Program-made: the position numbers and the translations under genes
In this document: positions 19,513 through 32,348 of the stretch, piece by piece
How the letters are laid out: the number at the start of each line of letters is the position of its first letter
How positions within the stretch are numbered: the stretch's first letter is position 1
Assembly: GCA_030428885.1 (NCBI GenBank)
Contig: JAUIEJ010000004.1
Coordinates: forward strand, 1 to 64,000
Reading direction: 5' to 3'
From: Gemmatimonadota bacterium
GTDB taxonomy: Bacteria > Gemmatimonadota > Gemmatimonadetes > Longimicrobiales > Gaopeijiaceae
Length of the DNA: 64,000 bases
Notes under the pieces: generated by a model
Database searches by the model: none
The model's input: the letters and a program-made list of their open reading frames with translations, nothing else
Told to the model about the DNA's origin: nothing

Positions 19513-20718
19513 ATGGCTGGACGTATGATGCTACGCCCGGTTGCGGCCTTCCTCGTCGTCCTCGGCGGTCTGGCTGCAGGGACCCCGGCACCGGCCCTGG
19601 CTCAGGGAGACCAGGGGTGCGATCTCTGCCACGGTGAGGTGGAGCTCCTCCGCCAGCACGTGCCCAGCCTCGCCGAAGCCGAACGCCTCTCGGTGACGTC
19701 GTCGGTCATCGCCGCGTCGGCTCACGAGGGGGAATCCTGCGCGTCGTGCCACACCGGGTACCAGCGCTGGCCCCACCCCGACGGCGGCACCACCGAGACG
19801 TGCGTGTCGTGCCACGAGGAGGCGGGCCGGCTCTGGGACTCGAGCCTCCACGCCCATCCGCGGCTGGACGAGCTGGATCCCGCCGACTGCGCGTCGTGCC
19901 ACGGGAGCCACGACATCCGATGGGTGGACGAGCTCCGGGAGGACGACGGCATCCGGACCATGAACGCCACCTGCGTCTCCTGCCACGAGACCCAGGCCAT
20001 GGTGCCCTCGGAGCCCCACGGCGACACGGTCTCGTGCGCGGGCTGTCACGCGCCCCACGGAACGAAGGGGGTCGACGATCTCACGGCGGCGGTGGCCCCC
20101 CTGGCCCAGGCCGCGACCTGCGGGGCGTGTCACGAAGAGGCCGCCGAGGCCTTCCCCGGCGACGCCCACGGAGCGGCCCTGGCCGACGCCGACCCCCTGG
20201 CGCTGGACGATTTGATGGAGGCGGGGGCCGAGATGCCGGCGACCTGCACCTCGTGCCATGGAGGTCACGGCATGGTCGCCGTGGACGATACGGCCAGCCT
20301 CGCCGTTCACGTGGACGCCTGCGCCACCTGCCACGCCGATGAGGCCGACCGCTACTTCGGTACGTACCACGGCAAGGCCACGGCCCTGGGGTCCCACGTG
20401 GTGGCCACCTGCGACGACTGCCACGGGGCCCACGGCATCTTCGCCTCGGCCGAAGAGGCGTCGTGGGTCCACGAGTCGAAGCTGGTGGAGACGTGCGGCG
20501 AGTGCCACGAGCACGCCCGGGAGGCCTTCGTAGCCTACGACTCCCATCCGGACCCCCTGGATCCGGACCGCAACTTCCCCCTGTTCGTCACCTTCGTGTT
20601 CATGAACGCCCTGCTGTTGGGCGTCCTCGTGGTGTTCGGTCTGCACACCTTCCTCTGGTGGGTCCGGATCCTCATCGACAGCCGGCGGTCCGAGGCCACG
20701 GAGGGGTCCCATGGCTGA
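19513..20718 (+). CDS. 11-haem c-type cytochrome with C-terminal membrane anchor
   Basis: The 401-residue precursor has a signal peptide (MLRPVAAFLVVLGGLAAGTPAPALAQ in its first 32 residues, split here by the cleavage site after ALAQ) and eleven CxxCH haem-binding motifs spread from the mature N-terminus to about residue 330. A single membrane helix near the C-terminus (FVFMNALLLGVLVVFGLHTF) would hold it in the inner membrane facing the periplasm. Its stop lies inside the start of the cytochrome b gene (8-base overlap), so the two probably form a complex in which haem b receives quinol electrons. Other start codons at 19525 and 19528 are possible; no strong Shine-Dalgarno decides between them. 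Confidence 0.93.
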   Translation: MAGRMMLRPVAAFLVVLGGLAAGTPAPALAQGDQGCDLCHGEVELLRQHVPSLAEAERLSVTSSVIAASAHEGESCASCHTGYQRWPHPDGGTTETCVSCHEEAGRLWDSSLHAHPRLDELDPADCASCHGSHDIRWVDELREDDGIRTMNATCVSCHETQAMVPSEPHGDTVSCAGCHAPHGTKGVDDLTAAVAPLAQAATCGACHEEAAEAFPGDAHGAALADADPLALDDLMEAGAEMPATCTSCHGGHGMVAVDDTASLAVHVDACATCHADEADRYFGTYHGKATALGSHVVATCDDCHGAHGIFASAEEASWVHESKLVETCGECHEHAREAFVAYDSHPDPLDPDRNFPLFVTFVFMNALLLGVLVVFGLHTFLWWVRILIDSRRSEATEGSHG

Positions 20719-21619
20719 GGGAGAACGGGGCGCCTTCGACGCTCCCGCGCTGGTGCCCCTCGACACGGCCCAGCGGGGAAAGGGACCGTTCGTCTGGCGC
20801 TTCACCCTGCTGCATCGCCTGCTCCACGCCCTGGCGATGTCGACGTTCTACGTGCTGGTTCTCACCGGGATTCCCATTCGCTACAGTTGCGCGCCGTTTT
20901 CGGCCGAACTCATGCGGTTGTGGGGCGGTGTGGAGCGGGCCGGATTGATCCACCGCATCGCCGCCGGGGTGATGGTGGTCTACTCGGTGGCGTTCCTGGG
21001 CTGGCTCTCCATGCGGTTCATCGTGTCGAAGGAGAAGCTGAAGTGGCTCCGGGGCTACGACAGCATGGTGCCGGATCTGCAGGACGCCCGGGACTTCATC
21101 AAGCAGTGGAAGTGGTACTTCACCGGGAAGGACCGGCCCCGCTTCGGCCGCTACGGCTACCTGGAGAAGCTCGACTTCTTCGGTGAGGTCTGGGGGCTCA
21201 TCATCATCGGCGGCTCGGGCATCATTCTCTGGTTCCCCGAGTTCTTCTCCCAGTGGCTGCCGGGATGGTCGTTCAACCTGGCCACCGTCTTCCACGGGTA
21301 CGAAGCCCTCATCGCGGCCGGATTCATCTTCATCGTCCACTTCTTCAACGTGCATCTGCGGCCCGACAAGTTTCCGCTGGACGCGGTCATGTTCCACGGC
21401 CGGGGCACGCTGGAGTACATGGAAGAGGAGCACCCGGCCCTCGTGGAGGAGCTCGAGGGCCGCCTGGACGGGCCGCCGTCGCCCACCGCCGTGCTGGACG
21501 CACCCGCGCCGCCGCCGAGCCGGGTCCAGACCTTCTTCGGCGCCGTCCTGGGCTTCCTGGCCCTGGGCATCGGCGTCCTCTGCATCGGGATGATCATATG
21601 GGCCGTCGCCATCTGCTGA
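20711..21619 (+). CDS. Di-haem cytochrome b subunit (FdnI/HydC-like b561 family)
   Basis: The 302-residue protein has four main transmembrane helices and a C-terminal fifth. Likely haem b ligands are H35 or H39 (FTLLHRLLHAL), H81 (LIHRIAAG), H195 (VFHGYEAL) and H210/H215 (FIVHFFNVHL). This arrangement is that of quinone-reactive cytochrome b subunits of formate dehydrogenases, hydrogenases and multihaem complexes. Flanked by an 11-haem and a 13-haem cytochrome with overlapping ends, it is most simply the quinol-oxidising or quinone-reducing subunit of a three-part complex. The acidic loop EYMEEEHPALVEELEG before the last helix is unusual in length. Confidence 0.92.
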   Translation: MAEGERGAFDAPALVPLDTAQRGKGPFVWRFTLLHRLLHALAMSTFYVLVLTGIPIRYSCAPFSAELMRLWGGVERAGLIHRIAAGVMVVYSVAFLGWLSMRFIVSKEKLKWLRGYDSMVPDLQDARDFIKQWKWYFTGKDRPRFGRYGYLEKLDFFGEVWGLIIIGGSGIILWFPEFFSQWLPGWSFNLATVFHGYEALIAAGFIFIVHFFNVHLRPDKFPLDAVMFHGRGTLEYMEEEHPALVEELEGRLDGPPSPTAVLDAPAPPPSRVQTFFGAVLGFLALGIGVLCIGMIIWAVAIC

Positions 21620-22998
21620 CCGCCGGAACCGCCCGCCTCGGCGCCGCCACGCTCGTCGCCGCGGCTCTGGGACTGGCGGCCGCCTGCGTCTCGCCCCCGG
21701 CCGGAGCCTTCGCCCGGGTGGACGCCGAGGAGGGGCACCGCACGCTGGTGTGTGCCGACTGCCACGCCGGTCCCCTGGCCGATCGGGGTCTCGCCCAGGC
21801 CGACGAGGCGACCTGCACCGCCTCGGGGTGTCACACCGACGGCGGACCCGCCGAGGTCGTGCTGGGCTCGGTGGCCTTCGCCCACCGGGACCACGGCGGC
21901 GACTCGGTGGCGGTCATGGAGTGCTCCGGCTGCCACACCCACCCCACTCCCGCGGCGGCCCTGGTGGCCGAGGTGGACGCCTGTTCGTTCTGCCACCTCT
22001 CGGAGCAGGCGGCGGGCTCCACGGGGGAGTGCCGGCTCTGCCATCAGAACCTCGAACACGCCGGGCTCACCAGTCAGGGCGTGGAGGTGCCCCACGACGA
22101 CCTGCCCTGGATCGACGGCGGGTGCGTGCGCTGCCACTACGACGTCACCGAGCCCCCGGTGCAGGTATCGCCGCTGCGCTGCGGAGCCTGCCACGACGAC
22201 GTGGAGAGCGCCGTGGACGACGGGGCCGGCCTCGACCTCCACGTGAGTCACGCCACCAGCTCGTGCATCGCGTGCCACGACGAGGGCCAGCACCGGATCC
22301 GGGCCATGTCGTCGTCCGTGTCCCTCCAGTGCGCCGACTGCCACCGGGAGGAACACGAGGTCGCCGTGACCGCCGGGTTCCCCGACGCCGCCACCTGCAA
22401 CCGATGCCACGCCGGAGCCCACGAGCCCCAGCAGCGCATGGTGCTCGGTCTGGTGGATGATCTGGACGCCCCCGATCCGAGCCAGAAGTTCCTGGATGGC
22501 CTCACCTGCCGCTCGTGCCACCAGGCCGCGCCCGCCTCGGATCCGGCGGTGCCGGTACGGGGCCGGGTCCAGACCTGCGTGGAGTGCCACCGATCCGAGT
22601 ACGCCACCGTGGAGCGGTGGTGGCGGGAGGGCACGGCCCAGCGCGTGGCCCTGGCCGCCGCCTACGCCCGCACCGCGGTCTCGCGAGTGGGCACCGATGC
22701 CGGGGCGGAAGCCACCGCGGCGCTGGACGAGGCCGACCGGCTGATCCAGCTCGTGGACACGGCGGGAGCGGTCCACAACCTGACCCTGGCCCACCGCCTC
22801 CTGGCGACGGCCACGGAGCGGGTGTCCCAGGCCTACACCGCCGCCGGGCGGACGGCGCCCCCGGTGCCCGACCTGGGCCGGGAGCCCAACATGGGGCTGT
22901 GCAGCTACTGCCACTACCGCACCAACGACCCCTGGGTCTTCCAGGAGATGTCCGGGGCGTTCCACCGCGACGTGCTGCGGCTGTCGGGGGGAGGTTGA
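21598..22998 (+). CDS. 13-haem c-type cytochrome lipoprotein or secreted cytochrome
   Basis: The 466-residue precursor overlaps the end of the cytochrome b gene by 22 bases. Its leader (ATLVAAALGLAAAC) ends in a lipobox-like Cys, so it may be lipid-anchored. It holds twelve CxxCH motifs and one CX4CH motif (CTASGCH, about residue 79). The first ten or so lie in tight succession; a haem-free helical segment of about 80 residues (WWREGTAQRVALAAAYARTA onward) precedes the final motif CSYCH. The gene completes the cytochrome b operon and probably passes electrons from the membrane complex toward the periplasm. Confidence 0.9.
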   Translation: MGRRHLLTAGTARLGAATLVAAALGLAAACVSPPAGAFARVDAEEGHRTLVCADCHAGPLADRGLAQADEATCTASGCHTDGGPAEVVLGSVAFAHRDHGGDSVAVMECSGCHTHPTPAAALVAEVDACSFCHLSEQAAGSTGECRLCHQNLEHAGLTSQGVEVPHDDLPWIDGGCVRCHYDVTEPPVQVSPLRCGACHDDVESAVDDGAGLDLHVSHATSSCIACHDEGQHRIRAMSSSVSLQCADCHREEHEVAVTAGFPDAATCNRCHAGAHEPQQRMVLGLVDDLDAPDPSQKFLDGLTCRSCHQAAPASDPAVPVRGRVQTCVECHRSEYATVERWWREGTAQRVALAAAYARTAVSRVGTDAGAEATAALDEADRLIQLVDTAGAVHNLTLAHRLLATATERVSQAYTAAGRTAPPVPDLGREPNMGLCSYCHYRTNDPWVFQEMSGAFHRDVLRLSGGG

Positions 22999-23008
22999 GG
23001 GGACGGCC

Positions 23009-23641
23009 GTGAGCCTCTCCCCTCCGCCTCTCGCCTTCGCCGCGCTCAATCTGCGCCGCAATCCCTTCGGGTCGGTGCGGCCCGACGAGGAAGCGGGCCT
23101 GGTGGTGGTCGATGTGGGGCGGTGGGCGTCGTTTCTCGGGGACTCCTCCTCGCCGGGGCGCCGGGCGATCCAGATCCTGGGACCCCCTGGGGCCGGGAAG
23201 TCCACCCACCTGCGGGCGCTGGCCCGGCGGTGGCCGGGACACCCGGTCTGGGCGTGGTCGGCCGACCACGGCTGGCCGGCCCCGCCCGCTGCGGGCCCCC
23301 ACCTCTTCGTGGACGACGCCCACCTTCTCTCCCGCGGCGCCTTCGCTCGGGCCGTGAGCTCTCGGCGGCGGGTCGCCCTGGCCACCCAGCGGTGTCTCGA
23401 GCAGCGCCTGGAGCGCCGGGGCTTCGACGTCCGGACCGTTCCCGTCACTGCCCTCGTGGATCCGGCCCACCTGGACGCCGTGGTGCAACGCCGCCTCGTC
23501 GCGGCGCGACGGGGCCCGGGCCCCGTGCCCCGCCCCGACCGGGCCCATCTGGAGTCCCTCGTCCGTCGCCACGGACCGGACCTGCGGGCGATCCTCGACG
23601 ACCTGTACCGCTGGATCCAGCGCTTTGCGGAGGCCGCGTGA
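23009..23641 (+). CDS. Small P-loop ATPase (ExeA/TniB-like fold)
   Basis: This 210-residue protein starts with GTG ten bases after the cytochrome stop. It has the opening phrase LNLRRNPFGSV seen in ExeA- and TniB-type AAA ATPases, Walker A GPPGAGKST (58-66) and Walker B LFVDDAH (99-105). A sensor-like VALATQR follows, and a small helical C-terminal lid. It lacks a recognisable DNA-binding or membrane domain. Its stop overlaps the start of the arrestin-like gene (GTGA), so the pair work together. A role in assembling or localising the cytochrome complex is conceivable but unproven. Confidence 0.78.
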   Translation: MSLSPPPLAFAALNLRRNPFGSVRPDEEAGLVVVDVGRWASFLGDSSSPGRRAIQILGPPGAGKSTHLRALARRWPGHPVWAWSADHGWPAPPAAGPHLFVDDAHLLSRGAFARAVSSRRRVALATQRCLEQRLERRGFDVRTVPVTALVDPAHLDAVVQRRLVAARRGPGPVPRPDRAHLESLVRRHGPDLRAILDDLYRWIQRFAEAA

Positions 23642-25164
23642 GCCAGGGCATCCGCATCGAGTTCGACGGCGGCGACCGGGTGTTTCGAAGCGGCGAGACC
23701 GTAGCGGGCGCCGTGGTGGTGGAGGTGGACGATGGATCCCGGTGCGAGTACGTGATGCTCCGGGCCTCGTGGCGCACCCACGGCAAGGGCACGGTGGCCA
23801 AGGGACGCCACGGCTCCCTCACCCTCCACGAGGGGCCGATTCCGGCGGGGGTCACCCGGTTCCCGTTTCGGTTCGAGGCCCCCGGCGAACCGTTCACCTA
23901 TCGAGGTCACCTCCTCAACGTCGACCACTACCTCGAGGCCCGCATCGAGATTCCCTGGGCCCTGGACCCGTCGGTGGAGGAGGACTTCGTGGTGGTGCCC
24001 GGCGCCGTGCCGGCACCGCCGCCGGATCCCGACCAGGCCGTGGGTCCGGGGTTGGAGTCCGTGCCCAACCCCCTGCTCCCCATGGTCATCGGGAGCGTCA
24101 CGCTGGTGGTGGCCCTCCTGACGTTCCCCTTCCCGGGGATCCTCTTCCTGGTCGTGGCCGCCGCCTTCCTCTTCGCGGGACTCCGGCAGAAGGCGGCCGC
24201 ATCCCGAGTCGGCGACGTGGTGGTGATCGTGGAACCCCAGGTCGTATCGCCGGGCGACGAGGTGCGGGTGGCCGTGGGCCTCTTCCCCCCGAAGGACGTG
24301 GCCCTGAACGGGGTCACGGCCACCCTGCGGGGCGCCGAGGTCGTGGTGTCGGGAAGCGGCACCGACCGGAAGACCCACCGCCACGTGGCCCATCGCGACG
24401 AACGGCCCCTGGTGGGCGCCGGCACCCTCCCCGGCGGCGTGGAGCGGGTGCTGGAGACCACCTTCACCGTGCCGTCCCTGGGCATGTGGACCTTCGCCGC
24501 CGAGCGGAATCGGGTCCTGTGGGACGTGCGGGTGGAGGTGGACATCCCGTCCTGGCCCGACTGGTCGTCGTCCACGCCCATCGTGGTCTGGCCCGCCCGG
24601 GGCGCGGTGGAGGCCCCTGCGGCGCGCCCTCGGATCGCGGCACCCGAGCCGGCTGCGCCACCTCCACCGCCGCCCCCAAGGAAGGCGGTGGCGACGGTCG
24701 TTCCGAAGCCGGAGGCCCCGCCGGAGGTCGTGCGGGAGCCGGAGGTCGTGCCGCAGGCGAAGGCGGCTACGCCCTCCGCTCCTTCTCCCCCGGTACCGGC
24801 GCCCGCATCCGACGGCTCCTTCGCCGCCGCCGTGCGGGAGGTGCTGGACGCCGGCGTGGTCTCGGGCGACCGGCGCACCAAGGCCGCCGCACTGGTGGGC
24901 CGTTCGGTCTCGTGCGAGGTGCGGATCGAACGGGTCCAGCGACCCTTCGGCCGGAACCTGGCCGCGGGCTACGAGGGAGGCCGCACCCTCCGGGGCACCC
25001 TGGACGACTCGGGCCTCCCGGTGGAGGTGCGGATCCCCGCCGCCGACGCCGACGCCGTGGACGCCCTGAAGCGGGGCGGCACCTGGCCGACCCGAGGCAC
25101 CTTGGTGGAGTGGGCCCGCCTCCCGGACCGGCCGGTCATCGCGGCCGAGGCCCGGGGACGGTAG
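23638..25164 (+). CDS. Arrestin-like-domain membrane protein with Pro-rich linker
   Basis: The 508-residue product opens with an arrestin/Spo0M-like beta-sandwich (IRIEFDGGDRVFRSGETVAG, YVMLRASWRTHGKG). A hydrophobic pair of helices (residues about 145-185, PMVIGSVTLVVALLTFPFPG) divides it from a second beta-sandwich (VVIVEPQVVSPGDEVRVAVG). Then come a long Pro/Ala linker (PPPPPPRK) and a C-terminal domain of about 100 residues. I do not recognise this combination as a characterised family. Translational coupling to the ATPase and position behind the cytochrome operon suggest an envelope-associated complex. Stable neighbour relations would be needed to link it to electron transfer. Confidence 0.78.
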   Translation: MSQGIRIEFDGGDRVFRSGETVAGAVVVEVDDGSRCEYVMLRASWRTHGKGTVAKGRHGSLTLHEGPIPAGVTRFPFRFEAPGEPFTYRGHLLNVDHYLEARIEIPWALDPSVEEDFVVVPGAVPAPPPDPDQAVGPGLESVPNPLLPMVIGSVTLVVALLTFPFPGILFLVVAAAFLFAGLRQKAAASRVGDVVVIVEPQVVSPGDEVRVAVGLFPPKDVALNGVTATLRGAEVVVSGSGTDRKTHRHVAHRDERPLVGAGTLPGGVERVLETTFTVPSLGMWTFAAERNRVLWDVRVEVDIPSWPDWSSSTPIVVWPARGAVEAPAARPRIAAPEPAAPPPPPPPRKAVATVVPKPEAPPEVVREPEVVPQAKAATPSAPSPPVPAPASDGSFAAAVREVLDAGVVSGDRRTKAAALVGRSVSCEVRIERVQRPFGRNLAAGYEGGRTLRGTLDDSGLPVEVRIPAADADAVDALKRGGTWPTRGTLVEWARLPDRPVIAAEARGR

Positions 25165-25341: not shown

Positions 25342-25800
25342 TCAACCGCCGTCGCCCAGGACGTCGGGCCGCAGCACCGCTCCGATGTAGTGGGCCACGG
25401 CGTCGATTTCCCGGGGGGTGAGGCCGGCCACACCCCAGGTGGGCATGCCCCGCACGTGTCCCACGAAGATCCGGTGCCGGATGGAGTCGGGGGCCTCGGC
25501 GTAGCGCCAACCTGCGGTGACCAGCGACGGCACCTGGAGGTTCCGCTCCAGGGCGTAGTCGGTGCCGCCTTCCCCCAGGGGCCCGTGGCAATTCCGGCAC
25601 GACGTGGAGAAGACCACGTTGCCCTCCAGGGCCCGGATGGAGTCCGACGGCCAGGCGATGGAATCGAAGAGGGCCATGGAGAACTCCCGGTCGGCCTCCA
25701 CCACCTGCTCGGCCCGATCCGGTGGCTCGAACTCGTGCTTCCCGCAGGCGGCCAGACCCACGGCCACCGTCATTGCCAGGGCCGCACCGACCCGCCTCAC
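25342..25800 (-). CDS. Monohaem cytochrome c lipoprotein
   Basis: The 152-residue product starts with a GTG overlapping the TPR gene stop by four bases. It has a lipoprotein leader (LAMTVAVGLAACG) and one class I cytochrome c domain with CRNCH in the phrase VVFSTSCRNCHGPLGEGG. A Met sixth ligand is likely in VRGMPTWGVAGLTP, and the C-terminal helix AVAHYIGAVL is typical. It is the last gene of the minus-strand multihaem operon and probably exchanges electrons with one of the larger cytochromes in the periplasm. Confidence 0.9.
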   Translation of the reverse strand: MRRVGAALAMTVAVGLAACGKHEFEPPDRAEQVVEADREFSMALFDSIAWPSDSIRALEGNVVFSTSCRNCHGPLGEGGTDYALERNLQVPSLVTAGWRYAEAPDSIRHRIFVGHVRGMPTWGVAGLTPREIDAVAHYIGAVLRPDVLGDGG

Positions 25801-26192
25801 GGACGCCCCCCTCCCGAATCGGGCGTCGCCGTGGGCATGCGGATCAGCGACGCCCCGGGAGCCAGTTCCCGGGCCGCGTCCAGGGCCGAATCGGCGGCGG
25901 CGGCGTTGCCCAGGGCCTGCTGGGCCATGTACAGGCCGAACCAGCCGGTGGGGTCGTCGGGAGACGACGCCGTGGCTTCCCGGAAGGAAGTCGCGGCGGC
26001 TTCGTACTCGCCCCGGCGGTACCGGGCGTTGCCCGAGTCGATCTGGGCCAGGGTCTCGGGCGGCAGTTCGGCCCGACCCGCCGTGGTTGGATCCAGGGAG
26101 TCGGTCTGCTGGTCGTCGGGCAGACACCCGGGGAGCGTGGCCACCAGGGCGAGAATGCCGGCGAGCCCGGCGATTCGGAGGCGGGTCGTCAT
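25797..26192 (-). CDS. Small TPR-containing lipoprotein
   Basis: The 131-residue protein has a lipobox leader (LAGILALVATLPGC) and about two tetratricopeptide-like helices pairs (IDSGNARYRRGEYEAAATSF, then PTGWFGLYMAQQALGNAAAA). It overlaps the 16-haem gene upstream and the cytochrome c gene downstream by four bases each. TPR lipoproteins often act as scaffolds for multiprotein envelope complexes, and position inside the cytochrome operon suggests such a role here. Confidence 0.8.
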   Translation of the reverse strand: MTTRLRIAGLAGILALVATLPGCLPDDQQTDSLDPTTAGRAELPPETLAQIDSGNARYRRGEYEAAATSFREATASSPDDPTGWFGLYMAQQALGNAAAADSALDAARELAPGASLIRMPTATPDSGGGRP

Positions 26193-27649
26193 TCCTGGCC
26201 CCCGATGGGCCCGATGTGGCAGGCGCTGCAGATCCAGGGATTCCGTTCCTGGGCCCGCACCGGATCGAAGTCCGGACCGTGGGGACTGACCTTGAAGGCC
26301 CCCGTCTGACTGTGGCACTGGAGACACTCCTTCTGGGTGTGGCACGAGGCGCACTGCTCGAGCCCCTGCCGGGCGCCCTGCCCGTGGCGGATCAGCCAGA
26401 GGGGTTCGGCGTCGTGGTACCCCGACCCGAGGCGCCCCACGCTCCCGAAGCCCACCTCCACGTGGCACTGGCGGCAGAAGGCCGCGGTGTTGTGGCAGTT
26501 GCTGCACTCCATGGACTGGGACCCCGCCGCCGACGCGTGACGCAGGGCGAACCCGGCGGGATGATACCCGGGGGCCGTCTGGGCGTCGTGGCAGTCGGCG
26601 CAGTAGGTCTGGGTGTGGCACGTGCTGCAGGCGTCGGGCGCCGCCGAGGCCAGGACCGTGTGGGCCGTCATGAAAAACGGCGTCTGGTGGGAGGCGGGCT
26701 GCCGGGGATCGAGGCCGACCCCGGGGGCCCGCACCTGGGGGCGCTCCGGGAGGGCCTGAGCCGACGCCGGCATGGGCGCCACGTGGCAGGCGGCGCAGTC
26801 GTTGCTGGTATGGCAGGTGGCGCAGTCGGCGGGGTTGGGGGCCGGCCGGCCGTGGGTCACCTCGAAGACGTCGTCGGTGTGCCCCTCGGGCACGAAGTAG
26901 CGGGCCTCCATGGGCGGAAGCGACCATCCGTCGGGGGCCGGTGACAGGGCCTGAATCTGGCGTCGTTCCCCGCTGACGTGGCACGACAGACAGCGGTCCT
27001 GGGTGTGGCAGGTGGCGCACCGGGCGATCCCGGACACCCCCCGGGGCCGGTGGGACCGGAGAAAGGCGTCGTCGCCCACGTCGTGGTCGTCGGGGGTGGG
27101 CAAGGTCGCCAGCAGGGCATCGCCTCCGGGTACGGCGGCAACCTCCCGGTGGCACGAGGCGCAGTCGAGCGCCGTGTAGTGCGTGTCGGGGTCGTCGCCG
27201 TGGCAGGTGAGGCACCGCTCCGGCGCCAGGGGCTCCACTTCCAGGCGCGCCCCGCCCTCGGCCACGTGGCACGACGCACACACCACGGCCTCTTCGCCCG
27301 CCGCCGCCACCGTGTCGATGTGGGCGGGATGGCTGAACTCCACCAGCCCCACGGGACGGGGCGCGGGCGTCCAGTCCACCCGGCGCTCCTCCTGGCCGTC
27401 GTGACAGCCGTCGCACGACGCGGGTTCGGGATAAAACGAGGCGGCGTCGCCCGACTCGATGCCCTGGTGGCATCCCACGCAGAGGGGAAAGAGGCCGTCG
27501 TGCCGCAGGTGGGGAAACGAGTCGGCCTCCTGGGGCGTCGGGGGACGCCAGGCCGCTTCCGCCGTCCACGACGGCGCCCCGGCCCCGGCCGTGGCGATCA
27601 TCACCATGCCGACGACGGCCATGGCCGCGGGCAGACGCAGCGAACCCAT
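26189..27649 (-). CDS. 16-haem c-type cytochrome, exported
   Basis: This 486-residue precursor has a signal peptide (LPAAMAVVGMVMIATAGAGA) and sixteen CxxCH motifs, no CX4CH, many arranged in close pairs such as CATCHTQDRCLSCH and CSTCHTQTYCADCH. There is no later membrane segment, so it should be periplasmic or held inside the adjacent outer-membrane barrel. The ATG at 27649 has GGAGG six bases upstream; an ATG three bases earlier overlaps the barrel stop. Its order directly after a barrel gene matches MtrA-type cytochromes of porin-cytochrome conduits, although the haem count is higher than the usual ten. Confidence 0.92.
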   Translation of the reverse strand: MGSLRLPAAMAVVGMVMIATAGAGAPSWTAEAAWRPPTPQEADSFPHLRHDGLFPLCVGCHQGIESGDAASFYPEPASCDGCHDGQEERRVDWTPAPRPVGLVEFSHPAHIDTVAAAGEEAVVCASCHVAEGGARLEVEPLAPERCLTCHGDDPDTHYTALDCASCHREVAAVPGGDALLATLPTPDDHDVGDDAFLRSHRPRGVSGIARCATCHTQDRCLSCHVSGERRQIQALSPAPDGWSLPPMEARYFVPEGHTDDVFEVTHGRPAPNPADCATCHTSNDCAACHVAPMPASAQALPERPQVRAPGVGLDPRQPASHQTPFFMTAHTVLASAAPDACSTCHTQTYCADCHDAQTAPGYHPAGFALRHASAAGSQSMECSNCHNTAAFCRQCHVEVGFGSVGRLGSGYHDAEPLWLIRHGQGARQGLEQCASCHTQKECLQCHSQTGAFKVSPHGPDFDPVRAQERNPWICSACHIGPIGGQE

Positions 27650-29133
27650 CATCGTCCTCCCCGGCGCAATGCCGGATCGTCTCCGAAAGCATACCTCAAC
27701 CCGAACCACCCCCGGGTCTGGTTCCAGACGTCGTCGCTGCCGCCGCGACCGGCATCCTGCCGCAGCAGGAGCATGCCGGCATCGAGTTGAACCCGCTCCG
27801 TGGCGGCCCACTCCAGCGACGCTCCGCCCCCCAACGCCCGCCCGTCACCGAGGCGGAAGGCCTCGAACTGCTGGAAGGTCGTGCCCGTCAGCCGGGCCCG
27901 CAGCGTCGGGGCGAGGCGCACGCCCACCGCCGCATCCAGGGAGTGGAGGAACGCCGACGCGCCCCAATCGACCTGCCAGGCCGCCTGGAGGTCCACCCGC
28001 TGCGACGGGCTCCACGTGCCGTTGAGTTCGGCCTGCCAGCCCCGGTCTTCCAGCGGCTCGAAGACCGTGGCCACGGCGGCGTCGCCGTAGCTCCGGGCCG
28101 CCAGGGAGAGCTGGAGCCCCGCAGTGCTGGAAAGTCCCGCGCTCAGGCGGAGCCGAGCTTCGCGGTAGGGCACGGGGCTGAAGAAGCCCCACACCGTGGA
28201 CAGCTCGAAGTAGGGCACGTAGCGCCGGGCCTCGACCTCGGCCAGAAGCCGGCCCTCCCGGAAGGCCCGCCGCAGCGTCAGGTGGGCCTTCCCCACCTGC
28301 CCGAAGGGCACGTCGTAGTCGGCCGAAGCCCGCACCTGGACAGCCCCGGGCAGGAAGGTGGCGAAGTCCAGCGCCGCCCGCTCCGCCACCAGCCCGGAAC
28401 GGTCACCGATGATCTCGCGCTGATACCGCAGTCCCAGGGAGGTCCGCACCCACCGCACCCCGGCCGCGCCCCCCCAGAGATACGCCTCCTGGTCGGGAAC
28501 GAAGTCCTCGATGCCCCGGAGCGCCTCCCGCCGGGTTTCGTTGAGCCCCCGGGCCAGGGAGCGGCCGCCGAAGGCCTCGGCCCACCATCCGGTGCCGTCC
28601 CAGCGCACGGCCCCGCCGTCGAAGCCCGAAAAGCCCAGCCCCGACGGCGTGTCCTGCCGGCCGACCCGCACGCGCAGGCGGCCCCGCTGGAGCTGGCCGT
28701 ACGCCACCAGGACGTCGAAGGGATCGTCGGCCAGCGGCCAGTCGAGTTCGCCCCGCAGGCGGTCACGGGCCCGGACCAGGCCGGTGAAGCTGAGCCCGGT
28801 CATGCCGAACCCCCACGCCGTGAATCCCACGTCCTGGGATCCCACCACCGCGGTCTCGGACGCGCCGGGCCGGTAGTAGGTGCACGGGATCGTGGGCGTG
28901 GTGCAGCTCACCGGGTTGCCGTCGATCCGCAGCCGCCCGTCGGGCCCCGCCACCGCCTCACCGGCGGCCGCCGTGTCGAGCTGGAGGGGCCGCATCTCGA
29001 AGAGCCGGACCGAGCTCGACGCCCACCCCCGCACCCCCTGCCCCGCCGCCGGTGCGGCCCGGACGCAGGCCACGACCGCCGCGGCCGCCAGAACGACCGC
29101 GGTGCGTCGCCCGGTGCGGGATCGACGGCTCAC
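27649..29133 (-). CDS. Outer-membrane beta-barrel (candidate conduit porin)
   Basis: The 494-residue protein has a GTG start, a basic signal peptide (TAVVLAAAAVVACVRAAPAAGQ region) and no cytochrome motif. The mature part is a long series of amphipathic strands with aromatic ends (GELDWPLADDPFDVLVAYGQLQ, split around residue 150; YREARLRLSAGL; GWFGLRYAFGDDP at the end), fitting a barrel of about 20 strands or more. It lies between the 20-haem and 16-haem genes and overlaps both. In known porin-cytochrome complexes a barrel of this kind houses the periplasmic cytochrome. Family membership of MtrB/OmbB cannot be shown by eye. Confidence 0.85.
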   Translation of the reverse strand: MSRRSRTGRRTAVVLAAAAVVACVRAAPAAGQGVRGWASSSVRLFEMRPLQLDTAAAGEAVAGPDGRLRIDGNPVSCTTPTIPCTYYRPGASETAVVGSQDVGFTAWGFGMTGLSFTGLVRARDRLRGELDWPLADDPFDVLVAYGQLQRGRLRVRVGRQDTPSGLGFSGFDGGAVRWDGTGWWAEAFGGRSLARGLNETRREALRGIEDFVPDQEAYLWGGAAGVRWVRTSLGLRYQREIIGDRSGLVAERAALDFATFLPGAVQVRASADYDVPFGQVGKAHLTLRRAFREGRLLAEVEARRYVPYFELSTVWGFFSPVPYREARLRLSAGLSSTAGLQLSLAARSYGDAAVATVFEPLEDRGWQAELNGTWSPSQRVDLQAAWQVDWGASAFLHSLDAAVGVRLAPTLRARLTGTTFQQFEAFRLGDGRALGGGASLEWAATERVQLDAGMLLLRQDAGRGGSDDVWNQTRGWFGLRYAFGDDPALRRGGR

Positions 29134-30884
29134 GGCACCCCCACCGGGGGAAGGGCGTGGCACTCGGCGCAGTCCCGCCCGGGACGGTGATCGACCAGGT
29201 CCTGATGACAGACCAGGCAGGCCTCCCGGTTCCGGGGCACGCCCTCGAAGGGCAGGTCCTCGTGGCATCCCACACCGGTGCACCCCACGTGGGCGTCCAC
29301 GGTGTGGGCCGTGGCCACCGGCACGGCGTGGCAGGTCATGCACGTGACCGTAGCCTCGTGATGATCGGTGTGGCAGCCCGCACACTCCCCCGTGTCCACC
29401 AGACGGGCCGGGCCCTCCTGGTGGCACGTCGCGCAGGTGACGTCGGGATGCCGGGCGTGATCGAAGGGGAACTCCCGGGTGACCGGAGTCTCCGTCACGG
29501 AGAAGGTCAGCCGCTGGGCCACGGGGAAGATGCCCCGGTCGGCGAGCACCGAGGACGCGTGGCAACTCGCACAGTCGTTGGCCGGCTCGCCGGTGTGGTG
29601 GCAGCTCCGGCAATCGGCGATGTCGGTGACGGTCAGGGCGCCGTGGGTTTCGGCGCTGGTGTGACAGGCGGTGCACTCCACGGAACGGTGGTTCGCGTGG
29701 CGGAAGGCGGTCTCCCCCGAGGTGTTGGGCGACACCTGGGACGGCTCCTGGGCCCGGGCGACCCGGGGCGTGGAGGCGGGTAGCGCGCCGATGTCGTCGG
29801 CGAAGGACGGCCCGCCCACGGGACGATCCCCCGGGGGGGTGTGCAGGTAGAGCGCCGCGGCCTGAATGGGGCGGGCCCGGCGGCCTCCGTCCCCCACCGG
29901 CTCGAGGCGCGCCGAGGCGCCTCCCGGGCCGTCGTCGAAGATGTCCTGGTGGCAGGAGAGGCAGTCGTCGCCGTCGAGGGTCCAGTCGTGGGCCGCGTGG
30001 CACTGACTGCAATTCTCGATGTCGGCGTGGTCCAGCCCCCGATGGAACGGGGTCAGCTCCCGCACGTCGTCGTGGCACCCCACCGTGGCGCAGGTTTCCA
30101 CGGCGTCGGCCGGGGTGGTCTGCTCGTGGGGGTTGTGGCAGGTCGAACACACCTGCTCGTGGGGCTCGTCGGGCGGCATGTCCACCAACACCCGCATGGC
30201 GTGGCACGACAGGCACTCGTTCTGGGTGGGAGCCAGCGCCTCCCGGGCCTCCGCCGCGTCGGCGGTAGTGGGAATGGACCGGCTGAACCCGTGGCACGCC
30301 GCACAGTGGATCGTGAAGTCGCCCATGCGGCCGAGCTGGACCTCGACATCGGTGTGGCACCCGCTCTGAGCGCACGTCTCGTCGGTGGCCGCGAACTCGT
30401 GGAGGCCCGACGAGTGGCACTCCACGCACAACAGCCCCTCGAGGTCGGGATCCTCGGACTGGAGGTGGACCCGATGGCCCGCCGAATTGCGGATGGTCTC
30501 CCACGTCTCGGGGTCGCCGTCGATGTGGCAGGCGGCACACGCCTCGTTGGTGACGACGGCGTGGACCTCGATGGTGTCGGGCGCCTCCAGCACCTGGGTG
30601 AGGGCCATCGAGCTCCGGGCGGCGAAGGTCGGCTGGTGGCACGCCTTGCAACCCAGGCCCCGGTGGGCGCTCCGGGCGAAGCGCTCGAAGGGCTCCGCCA
30701 TGAGGTGGCACGACATGCAGAAGTCGTTGTCGTGCTGGACGTAGTCGTACGTCTGGTACGCGTAGTACCCGCCCGCGCTGACGCCGCCGGCCCCGAGGAG
30801 GCCGACGGCGAGCAGCACCGCAACGGGATGCCGGGCGGTCAGGTCGCTCACGCGACCCGCCGCCCGGCGGAAGAACCCCTTCAT
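29130..30884 (-). CDS. NapC-headed 20-haem membrane-anchored cytochrome
   Basis: The 584-residue protein has one N-terminal membrane helix (about residues 20-42) directly followed by a NapC/NirT-like start: CMSCH at 56-60, then LMAEPFERFARSAHRGLGCKACH. Seventeen CxxCH motifs and three CX4CH motifs (CAQSGCH, CATVGCH, CTGVGCH) give up to twenty haems. NapC-type heads take electrons from quinol; here the head is joined to a haem chain long enough to cross the periplasm. A haem-free stretch of about 90 residues (PGGASARLEP to SPNTSGETAF) divides the chain into two halves. It overlaps the barrel gene by four bases (GTGA). Confidence 0.92.
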   Translation of the reverse strand: MKGFFRRAAGRVSDLTARHPVAVLLAVGLLGAGGVSAGGYYAYQTYDYVQHDNDFCMSCHLMAEPFERFARSAHRGLGCKACHQPTFAARSSMALTQVLEAPDTIEVHAVVTNEACAACHIDGDPETWETIRNSAGHRVHLQSEDPDLEGLLCVECHSSGLHEFAATDETCAQSGCHTDVEVQLGRMGDFTIHCAACHGFSRSIPTTADAAEAREALAPTQNECLSCHAMRVLVDMPPDEPHEQVCSTCHNPHEQTTPADAVETCATVGCHDDVRELTPFHRGLDHADIENCSQCHAAHDWTLDGDDCLSCHQDIFDDGPGGASARLEPVGDGGRRARPIQAAALYLHTPPGDRPVGGPSFADDIGALPASTPRVARAQEPSQVSPNTSGETAFRHANHRSVECTACHTSAETHGALTVTDIADCRSCHHTGEPANDCASCHASSVLADRGIFPVAQRLTFSVTETPVTREFPFDHARHPDVTCATCHQEGPARLVDTGECAGCHTDHHEATVTCMTCHAVPVATAHTVDAHVGCTGVGCHEDLPFEGVPRNREACLVCHQDLVDHRPGRDCAECHALPPVGVP

Positions 30885-30908
30885 CGGTTCACCGAGAGTG
30901 TACCCGGC

Positions 30909-32348
30909 TCACCGCAGAGGACCACCTGGAACCAACTGGCGCTCCAGCGACACGCCCTGCACCGACAGACCGTACTGGCTCTGGAGCTGCTGGATGCTGG
31001 CGATCATGAGCGCCTCGGCGAGGAACGGGTTGTGGGCCGCCGTGCCGTTGAACTCGGCGAAGCCCGCGTTGAACTTGGCCCCTTCACCCGTGGTGAACTT
31101 GCCGTCGGAGGTGTCGAATTCCGAGGCGGGAACCTGAGCCACCAGGGCGTTGACCTGATCGGCAAGATTCTGGAGTCGGAGCGTCGCCGCAAGCATGGCG
31201 GCCCGAGCGCCCGAGGCCGACCCGTGACATCCGGAGACGGCGCACCCCTCGTAGTTCTTGCCCGTATCGGCGCAGTCCTGATCCGCCGCAGGAGCGCCGT
31301 TCGCGTCGACGCACGGCGTGGCCAGGAACCGGTGCCCGGTGGCAGTGACCACGAACTCACCGGTCGCCGCATCCGTCACCTCGTAGCTGTTCACGTGGCA
31401 GCCGGCGCACAGACCCGGGTTCGCGTCCGACCCGTGGGTGGCCACGATGTCGCCGGGGCCCAGGTCGAGGTTCGGGGGCCACCAGCCCGCCTCACCGACC
31501 AGGAGGGGACCCTGGGGCGAGTGGGGGCCACGGGACGACGTGGGATCGGGCACGCCCCGCTTGTGGTGGCACTTCATGCAGAGGTTCTGATCCTCGTTGG
31601 GCACGGAGATCGAGAACCGGAGCTGCCCTTCGAAGTCCGACCCGTGGGGGTCGTGGCAGACCGCACACGTGATGGACAGGTGATTGCCCGTGAGGTCGGA
31701 GTCCTCCTCGATGTACGGATCGTTGACCCCGAAGGCCTTGAGCGCCCCCGCCCCGGTGTGGCAGGACTGACAGGCCTCACGGCCCTGGGCACCCTCGTAC
31801 ATGTCGCCGTGCCGCGACTGGGCCCACTCTTCCGCGAACGGATGATGGGAGCCCTGGTGGCACTCTCCGCAACCGAGGGTCAGGTCCAGGCCCACGTCTA
31901 CCGGCGCCAGCGGGATGTTGCCGTCGTTCGGCGCCGTCACGTGGTCGAGTCCGGGCCCGTGGCAGCTCTCGCATTGGACGTCGTGGTAGCGGTCCTCGGC
32001 CGTAGCGGTGTACCCCGCGGCCGTCGTCTGCGTGTTCCCGAGCTCGTTGACGGTGTGACAACCCTCGCAGAACGCCTGGGCGTGTCCACTGTCCTGGAGA
32101 CCGGCCCATGCATCGGCGTGGGCAGAACCCTCCCATTGCCCCTGGGGACCCACGTGGCAGTTCCCGCACACGGTGAGTTTCGTCGACTGGTCGGTGTAGC
32201 CCACGAACCCCAAGGCAGCCTCCAAGGGTTCCTCGAAGAGCTCCCGATCCCGGAAGACGATGGTCTCGTCCGTACAGGCGGTGGACGCCAGGGTCCCGGC
32301 GACGACGGCGAGGAACGCGGTCCAGGCCCTCGTTCTTCCTGGTCTCAT
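30909..32348 (-). CDS. 9-haem cytochrome c lipoprotein
   Basis: This 479-residue protein leads the operon. It has a lipobox leader (FLAVVAGTLASTAC) and eight CxxCH plus one CX4CH motif (CAVSGCH, about residue 360). The early phrase CGNCHVGPQGQWEGSAHADAW resembles the N-terminus of cytochrome c554-type multihaem proteins. The last 110 residues carry no haem and look helical (LRLQNLADQVNALVAQVP). A lipid anchor fits either leaflet facing the periplasm or the cell surface; as the extracellular partner of a conduit it would be the MtrC/OmcA analogue. That placement is inference. Confidence 0.9.
   Translation of the reverse strand: MRPGRTRAWTAFLAVVAGTLASTACTDETIVFRDRELFEEPLEAALGFVGYTDQSTKLTVCGNCHVGPQGQWEGSAHADAWAGLQDSGHAQAFCEGCHTVNELGNTQTTAAGYTATAEDRYHDVQCESCHGPGLDHVTAPNDGNIPLAPVDVGLDLTLGCGECHQGSHHPFAEEWAQSRHGDMYEGAQGREACQSCHTGAGALKAFGVNDPYIEEDSDLTGNHLSITCAVCHDPHGSDFEGQLRFSISVPNEDQNLCMKCHHKRGVPDPTSSRGPHSPQGPLLVGEAGWWPPNLDLGPGDIVATHGSDANPGLCAGCHVNSYEVTDAATGEFVVTATGHRFLATPCVDANGAPAADQDCADTGKNYEGCAVSGCHGSASGARAAMLAATLRLQNLADQVNALVAQVPASEFDTSDGKFTTGEGAKFNAGFAEFNGTAAHNPFLAEALMIASIQQLQSQYGLSVQGVSLERQLVPGGPLR

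Follow-up and report, generated by a model that had tools for sequence, protein, structure and literature searches.

The stretch of DNA analysed here, referred to below as the window, comprises 64,000 nucleotides of a Gemmatimonadota bacterium of the Gaopeijiaceae (assembly GCA_030428885.1, contig JAUIEJ010000004.1, positions 1 to 64,000 of the forward strand). Six consecutive minus-strand genes of the window form one operon (25342-32348), which encodes the multihaem cytochromes MHC9, NapC20 and MHC16, an outer-membrane β-barrel, a small TPR lipoprotein and a monohaem cytochrome c (Table 1). As argued below, this operon quite probably encodes a complete porin-cytochrome electron conduit equipped with its own quinol dehydrogenase and its own surface cytochrome.

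The operon and its genes

An earlier note on this DNA, made from the sequence alone, had described a 20-haem NapC-headed cytochrome, a barrel gene and a 16-haem cytochrome that overlap one another between positions 26189 and 30884. These genes indeed follow each other in that order, all on the minus strand, and the range is correct for the three of them, although the operon runs on at both sides. Overlaps of four nucleotides join its last five genes, the NapC20/barrel and barrel/MHC16 junctions reading GTGA and ATGA, respectively, while a gap of 24 nucleotides separates MHC9 from NapC20. Searches of Pfam and NCBIfam return mainly generic multihaem cytochrome domains in the operon cytochromes and nothing in the barrel. 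The haem motifs are invariant in alignments of relatives (16/16 in MHC16, 20/20 in NapC20 and 9/9 in MHC9) and the barrel fold is confirmed by AlphaFold2, so these features are not a product of chance.

Table 1. Coordinates of the operon genes and of the features within them, in order of transcription.
Feature	Position	Strand	Description
MHC9	30909..32348	minus	Lipoprotein of 479 amino acids; 9 haem motifs (8 CXXCH, 1 CX4CH)
NapC20	29130..30884	minus	584 amino acids; N-terminal transmembrane helix; 20 haem motifs (17 CXXCH, 3 CX4CH)
NapC20 residues 1-318	29931..30884	minus	Membrane-anchored 11-haem NapC/NirT-type module; NrfH matches; proposed quinol dehydrogenase
NapC20 linker	29718..29930	minus	Within a haem-to-haem gap of 96 residues; 67% P/A/G/S/T/E/D/Q
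NapC20 residues 390-584	29133..29717	minus	9-haem c3/c7-like module
Outer-membrane β-barrel gene	27649..29133	minus	GTG start; precursor of 494 amino acids; no haem motif; no Pfam family
Barrel loop VPYFELSTVWGFFSPVP	28168..28218	minus	Assigned extracellular; 3.45 bits against 2.26 overall
MHC16	26189..27652	minus	Exported cytochrome of 487 amino acids; 16 CXXCH
MHC16 dihaem repeats and terminal haem	26192..27133	minus	Five repeats (H-x-H-x-CXXCH-x4/5-CXXCH), from repeat analysis
Small TPR lipoprotein	25797..26192	minus	Pfam TPR; frequent downstream neighbour (27/52 loci)
Monohaem cytochrome c	25342..25800	minus	Lipobox-like N-terminus; PF13442 (E 1.1e-11); 11/52 loci

Association of the barrel with a multihaem partner

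One line of evidence for the conduit reading is the constancy with which the barrel and MHC16 families accompany each other. The barrel query is found in 118 of 395 sampled Gemmatimonadota genomes, belonging to 67 of 138 genera. In the set used to examine gene neighbourhoods, which holds 62 barrel reading frames (L032-L118, with contig L116 counted twice), a cytochrome of the MHC16 family, the proposed plug, lies downstream of the barrel in 49 of 52 loci; the plugs of L033 and L039 were scored as missing yet are present, their open reading frames opening too far upstream for the interval searched. Upstream of the barrel, 44 of the 51 loci with enough sequence have MHC9 and 38 have a gene that contains the 9-haem module, which in 30 of the 38 is fused to a NapC module; both are missing more often than the plug. 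When a profile of the MHC16 repeat region (A7) is searched in 298 genomes, 82 contain both barrel and plug, 2 contain the barrel only (84 barrel genomes) and 8 the plug only, and in all 81 genomes that carry the two on one contig the distance between them is at most 1.2 kb. This near-obligate pairing is the behaviour expected of partners like MtrA and MtrB. The search for related loci with the single MHC16 sequence gave no match, and a search with the MHC9-family alignment lists at its top almost exclusively records from metagenome-assembled genomes of Gemmatimonadota.

Some loci depart from the common arrangement. One family of the class (f9; L041, L042, L044 and L046) lacks NapC20 and has a plug of 9-10 haems, followed by one or two tetrahaem genes. 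A contig of Candidatus Eisenbacteria (L118, 9587-13558) carries a 9-haem gene, a distant relative of the barrel (hhalign probability 93%) and a 12-haem plug; the module extends beyond Gemmatimonadota. The order of 9-haem gene, 18-haem gene, barrel-like open reading frame and 12-haem gene seen in bacterium MAG26 (L148, 9824-15749) was rejected as a further case, its barrel not being significantly related (hhalign probability 6%).

The AlphaFold2 model of the barrel (25 sequences; 462 amino acids modelled) reaches a predicted local distance difference test score (pLDDT) of 85.2 and a predicted TM-score (pTM) of 0.76, with about 22 long strands counted, and bears out the barrel claimed in the earlier note. 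In VIA-align, TonB-dependent transporter barrels come first, with PirA at Z 20.7 and Cir, BtuB and FhuA at Z 17-19. TonB-dependent transporters are built of 22 strands and hold a folded plug domain in their lumen, a kind of domain that the barrel of the operon itself lacks. Its profile finds no match among PDB sequences up to an E-value of 10. The turns assigned to the periplasm measure 2-6 residues and the longer loops lie on the opposite side, among them VPYFELSTVWGFFSPVP, the most extended of the highly conserved segments of the barrel. Outer loops are usually the most variable part of a porin; the conservation of this one therefore makes it likely that a conserved partner sits at the outer mouth, and the loop is proposed to contact either the tip of the plug or MHC9. 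A near-invariant Cys pair (C-x6-C, modelled residues 45 and 52) is located in the first long loop and possibly forms an extracellular disulfide.

MHC16 as the putative plug

MHC16 opens with a head of five haems, continues with five dihaem repeats in tandem and ends in a single haem. The head corresponds to Pfam Cytochrome_C7, and the PDB matches (e.g., HmcA, a subunit of alternative complex III and c7 proteins) fall mainly there; for the repeat region, sequence comparison finds no relative of solved structure, and dihaem hairpins of its kind occur in none of the remaining multihaem proteins of the window. MHC16 and NapC20 have one haem for about every 29-30 residues, as against about 33 residues in MtrA homologues, a low figure that has been linked to wires (PMC5566968).

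In relatives the plug holds 9-18 haems, mostly differing by whole repeats, and is found beside a barrel of similar size. Plugs with 16 haems (44 sequences) have five repeats, those with 18 have six, those with 13 and most with 9 have four, and those with 10 or 11, as well as one with 12, have three; a few cases are truncated or divergent. The 9-haem plug of Candidatus Kutchimonas (L111) lacks the head and one repeat and retains an early pair together with the seven final haems. Because the barrel stays about the same size and these haems are common to the 16-haem and the Kutchimonas-type 9-haem plugs, the additional haems are probably periplasmic. The earlier note had expected a much longer wire of MHC16: the sixteen haems stand, but the barrel does not grow with plugs of 9-18 haems, so that the extra length is probably on the periplasmic side. 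At about 27 haems per 200 Å (PMC7096707), seven haems would extend over about 52 Å, enough to cross an outer membrane of about 40 Å (PMC7198977). The C-terminal part of MHC16 would thread the barrel pore. The N-terminus of MtrA points into the periplasm; by analogy, the other nine haems of MHC16 (about 67 Å) would reside there.

NapC20 and MHC9

The NapC20 family splits at a Pro/Ala-rich linker into a NapC module of 11 haems and a second module of nine. In fused relatives the gap spanned by this linker is mostly 63-175 residues long, with a few shorter ones, and in several relatives the 9-haem module is a free gene of 9-10 haems, in some cases with a lipobox. The short genes of relatives were at one point read as short NapC proteins, a reading that was rejected as they lack the NapC head and correspond to the C-terminal 9-haem module alone. 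The N-terminus of NapC20 is a hydrophobic helix, and the NapC module matches NrfH (PDB 2j7a, E 1.5e-10) and TIGR03153 (E 1.3e-6, below its curated cut-off). Since the 9-haem module is fused to this membrane-anchored module, it is placed in the periplasm. In one lineage (L048), NapC20 is replaced upstream of the barrel by a gene with cytochrome-b similarity and at least 15 haems, which agrees with the use of two sorts of quinol oxidase by known conduits (PMC6295460).

That the 20-haem protein could bridge the periplasm by itself, as the earlier note suggested, is doubtful. At the haem spacing used above, 20 haems extend over about 148 Å, and the periplasm measures 200-235 Å (PMC7096707, PMC5971433). 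A shuttle-free bridge is nonetheless possible if the linker contributes, or if NapC20 is continued by the periplasmic part of MHC16 (about 215 Å together).

The MHC9 profile matches 6qvm (E 1.4e-20) and 6i5b (E 2.7e-14) significantly, and c554/HAO-like proteins are matched too. We take 6qvm, the record of which is entitled 'Multiheme cytochrome cf', to be OmhA of Carboxydothermus, and 6i5b is presumably OcwA. MHC9 carries a lipobox with acidic residues at +3/+4. In its family the lipobox Cys was placed by pattern in 39 of 73 sequences, most of which carry D/E at +3/+4; many of the sequences beyond those 39 have a lipobox by eye. Acidic residues at +3/+4 are found in surface lipoproteins of Bacteroides (PMC5080379), and MHC9 is on this sequence basis proposed to be a cell-surface cytochrome. 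In L099, L100, L101 and L110, two or three OcwA/OmhA-like 9-haem genes stand in tandem, and no barrel was found on the contig piece.

Proposed electron path and alternative explanations

In the proposed model, the membrane-anchored 11-haem NapC module would oxidise menaquinol, and the electrons would pass from its haems across the flexible linker to the 9-haem module and from there to MHC16, the putative plug of the barrel. MHC16, its C-terminal repeats occupying the lumen and its N-terminal haems lying on the periplasmic side, would hand the electrons over to the OcwA/OmhA-like lipoprotein MHC9 at the cell surface, which would reduce an external mineral, humic or other partner or, if the path runs in reverse, oxidise it. 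The conduit reading rests on the barrel/plug pairing, the TonB-transporter-like fold of about 22 strands and the low number of residues per haem, as well as on the lipobox and OcwA/OmhA match of MHC9, the NrfH match of the NapC module and the periplasmic position assigned to the 9-haem module. The resemblance to porin-cytochrome operons pointed out in the earlier note is therefore well supported, by the pairing, the predicted barrel of about 22 strands, the lipoprotein and the NapC-type module alike.

Several observations weigh against this reading. The AlphaFold2 model of MHC16, the putative plug, is unusable (pLDDT 54, pTM 0.30), and a Foldseek search with that model returned no match. The Fisher test for co-occurrence of barrel and plug (p ~1e-61) is uncorrected for shared ancestry, and the 9-haem module is missing from 13 of 51 barrel loci. 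Also, the surface-export signal invoked for MHC9 is known from Bacteroidota, not from Gemmatimonadota, and Pfam Cytochrom_NNT scores 21.1 bits on the NapC module, just under its cut-off of 24.1.

One could suppose that the barrel is a porin or transporter (e.g., for a metal complex) clustered with the cytochromes through co-regulation only, the latter forming a periplasmic respiratory or detoxifying chain in which MHC9 acts as a reductase of the nitrite/hydroxylamine type. Uptake receptors are indeed the closest structural matches of the barrel, the matches of MHC9 include c554/HAO-like as well as OcwA-like proteins, and OcwA itself reduces nitrite and hydroxylamine (PMC7096707). This explanation is nevertheless improbable, given that the MHC16 family and the barrel are nearly inseparable across genera, that the longest of its highly conserved segments forms a loop assigned to the outer side, and that only cytochromes and the TPR protein recur directly beside the barrel in most loci. 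Still less probable is an exchange of roles, with the 9-haem module (or the free 9-10-haem protein) plugging the barrel and MHC16 serving as a wire in the periplasm or outside the cell. With nine to ten haems the module equals MtrA in size, and in many loci it lies directly upstream of the barrel, but its absence from 13 of 51 barrel loci contrasts with the nearly constant presence of the MHC16 family, and most relatives have it fused to an inner-membrane anchor.

A further explanation keeps the anatomy and changes the direction, so that the quinone pool would receive electrons from Fe(II), Mn(II) or another cell. Conduits of the porin-cytochrome kind can run in either direction (PMC10734462), and PCC3 and PCC4 were identified when genes for Fe(II) oxidation were sought (PMC5566968). 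An inward conduit is unlikely here, though by no means far-fetched, as quinol dehydrogenases of the NapC type and OcwA/OmhA-like cytochromes are elsewhere associated with the reduction of external acceptors. The conduit itself may, at somewhat less than even chances, represent a distinct conduit family, defined by its own barrel, a tandem-dihaem plug, a wire length evolving mostly by whole repeats at near-constant barrel size, a periplasmic subunit fused to the quinol dehydrogenase and a shuttle-free wire of 45 haems (20 + 16 + 9).

Comparison with known conduits

With MtrCAB of Shewanella and with MtoAB/PioAB the operon shares a barrel with a putative multihaem plug, a proposed surface cytochrome and a proposed quinol dehydrogenase of the NapC family (CymA in the known systems). 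In MtrAB the plug, MtrA, is about 30 x 35 Å across and its C-terminus faces out, while MtrB has 26 strands (PMC7198977), in contrast to the approximately 22 strands and 460 amino acids of the operon barrel; the MtrA plug has 10 haems instead of 16, and CymA is a separate small protein. Membership of the barrel in the MtrB family was considered and rejected, since PF11854 is matched by none of 39 barrel members (E ≤ 0.1) and the hhalign alignment with Gemmatimonadota MtrB covers 167 columns at 79% probability, compared with 437 columns at 100% within the barrel family. For the operon as a whole, MtrAB membership was likewise rejected, neither a PF11854 barrel nor a decahaem MtrA-type plug being present. 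PF11854 is absent from the source genome and present in 13 of 150 Gemmatimonadota. True MtrB genes do occur elsewhere in the phylum, the four examined (L152-L155) encoding 716-821 amino acids beside 10-haem genes, and in some genomes (G010, G012, G024, G063 and G083) they coexist with the operon-type barrel; the phylum therefore has at least two separate conduit types.

The Pcc systems of Geobacter (OmbB-OmaB-OmcB) comprise a barrel of 18-22 predicted strands, a periplasmic cytochrome of 5-14 haems and an outer-membrane cytochrome (PMC4245776). By its number of strands the operon barrel fits this size class, and the differences are the proposed plug of 16 haems (up to 18 in relatives), the OcwA/OmhA-like proposed surface cytochrome and the NapC-20-haem fusion. 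PCC3 of neutrophilic iron oxidisers resembles the operon in combining very haem-rich cytochromes with a porin, and a periplasm-spanning wire has been proposed for it (PMC5566968, PMC10734462). It differs in its cytochrome-b-like inner-membrane protein, porins of up to 42 strands, periplasmic cytochromes of 21-27 haems and extracellular ones of 10-35 haems. PCC3 is defined by a porin, an extracellular and a periplasmic multihaem cytochrome and an inner-membrane protein of five transmembrane segments with HX13H motifs; the operon has no inner-membrane gene without haem motifs, and the cytochrome b gene of the window (20711-21619) belongs to another cluster. The unusual size ascribed to the conduit in the earlier note thus holds with respect to Mtr and Geobacter-type Pcc, but not to PCC3.

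OcwA of Thermincola, which has nine haems (PMC7096707), and OmhA of Carboxydothermus are both matched by MHC9 but belong to Gram-positive hosts and have no barrel. NapC20 has a hydrophobic N-terminal helix and a head that is probably NapC-like, as in ImcH, CymA and NrfH of the NapC/NirT group, and its 20 haems exceed the 6-10 of ImcH homologues (PMC6295460). No earlier description of the operon was found in an open-access library, although one may exist outside that library.

Implications and neighbouring genes

Most of what is known of extracellular electron transfer comes from Proteobacteria, Desulfobacterota and some Gram-positives. If the conduit reading is correct, a conserved conduit would be present in over a quarter of the sampled members of Gemmatimonadota, a widespread and little cultured phylum, which would add candidate electroactive bacteria and provide a searchable marker for them. 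Also, natural plugs of 9-18 haems beside one barrel family would make the relation of wire length to membrane and periplasm dimensions testable, and the fusion of a putative quinol dehydrogenase module with a conduit subunit bears on the question of diffusing shuttles versus a fixed wire across the periplasm.

On the plus strand of the window, the cluster at 19525-22998 encodes an 11-haem protein that has a membrane helix at its C-terminus, a cytochrome b resembling the formate dehydrogenase gamma subunit and a 12-13-haem protein, and is likely a quinone-linked module. A cluster of this type adjoins the conduit operon in two genomes of the same genus (L052 and L068). In the window the cluster is followed on the same strand, at 23009-25164, by a small ATPase-like gene and by a gene for a protein of 508 amino acids that appears arrestin-like by eye.

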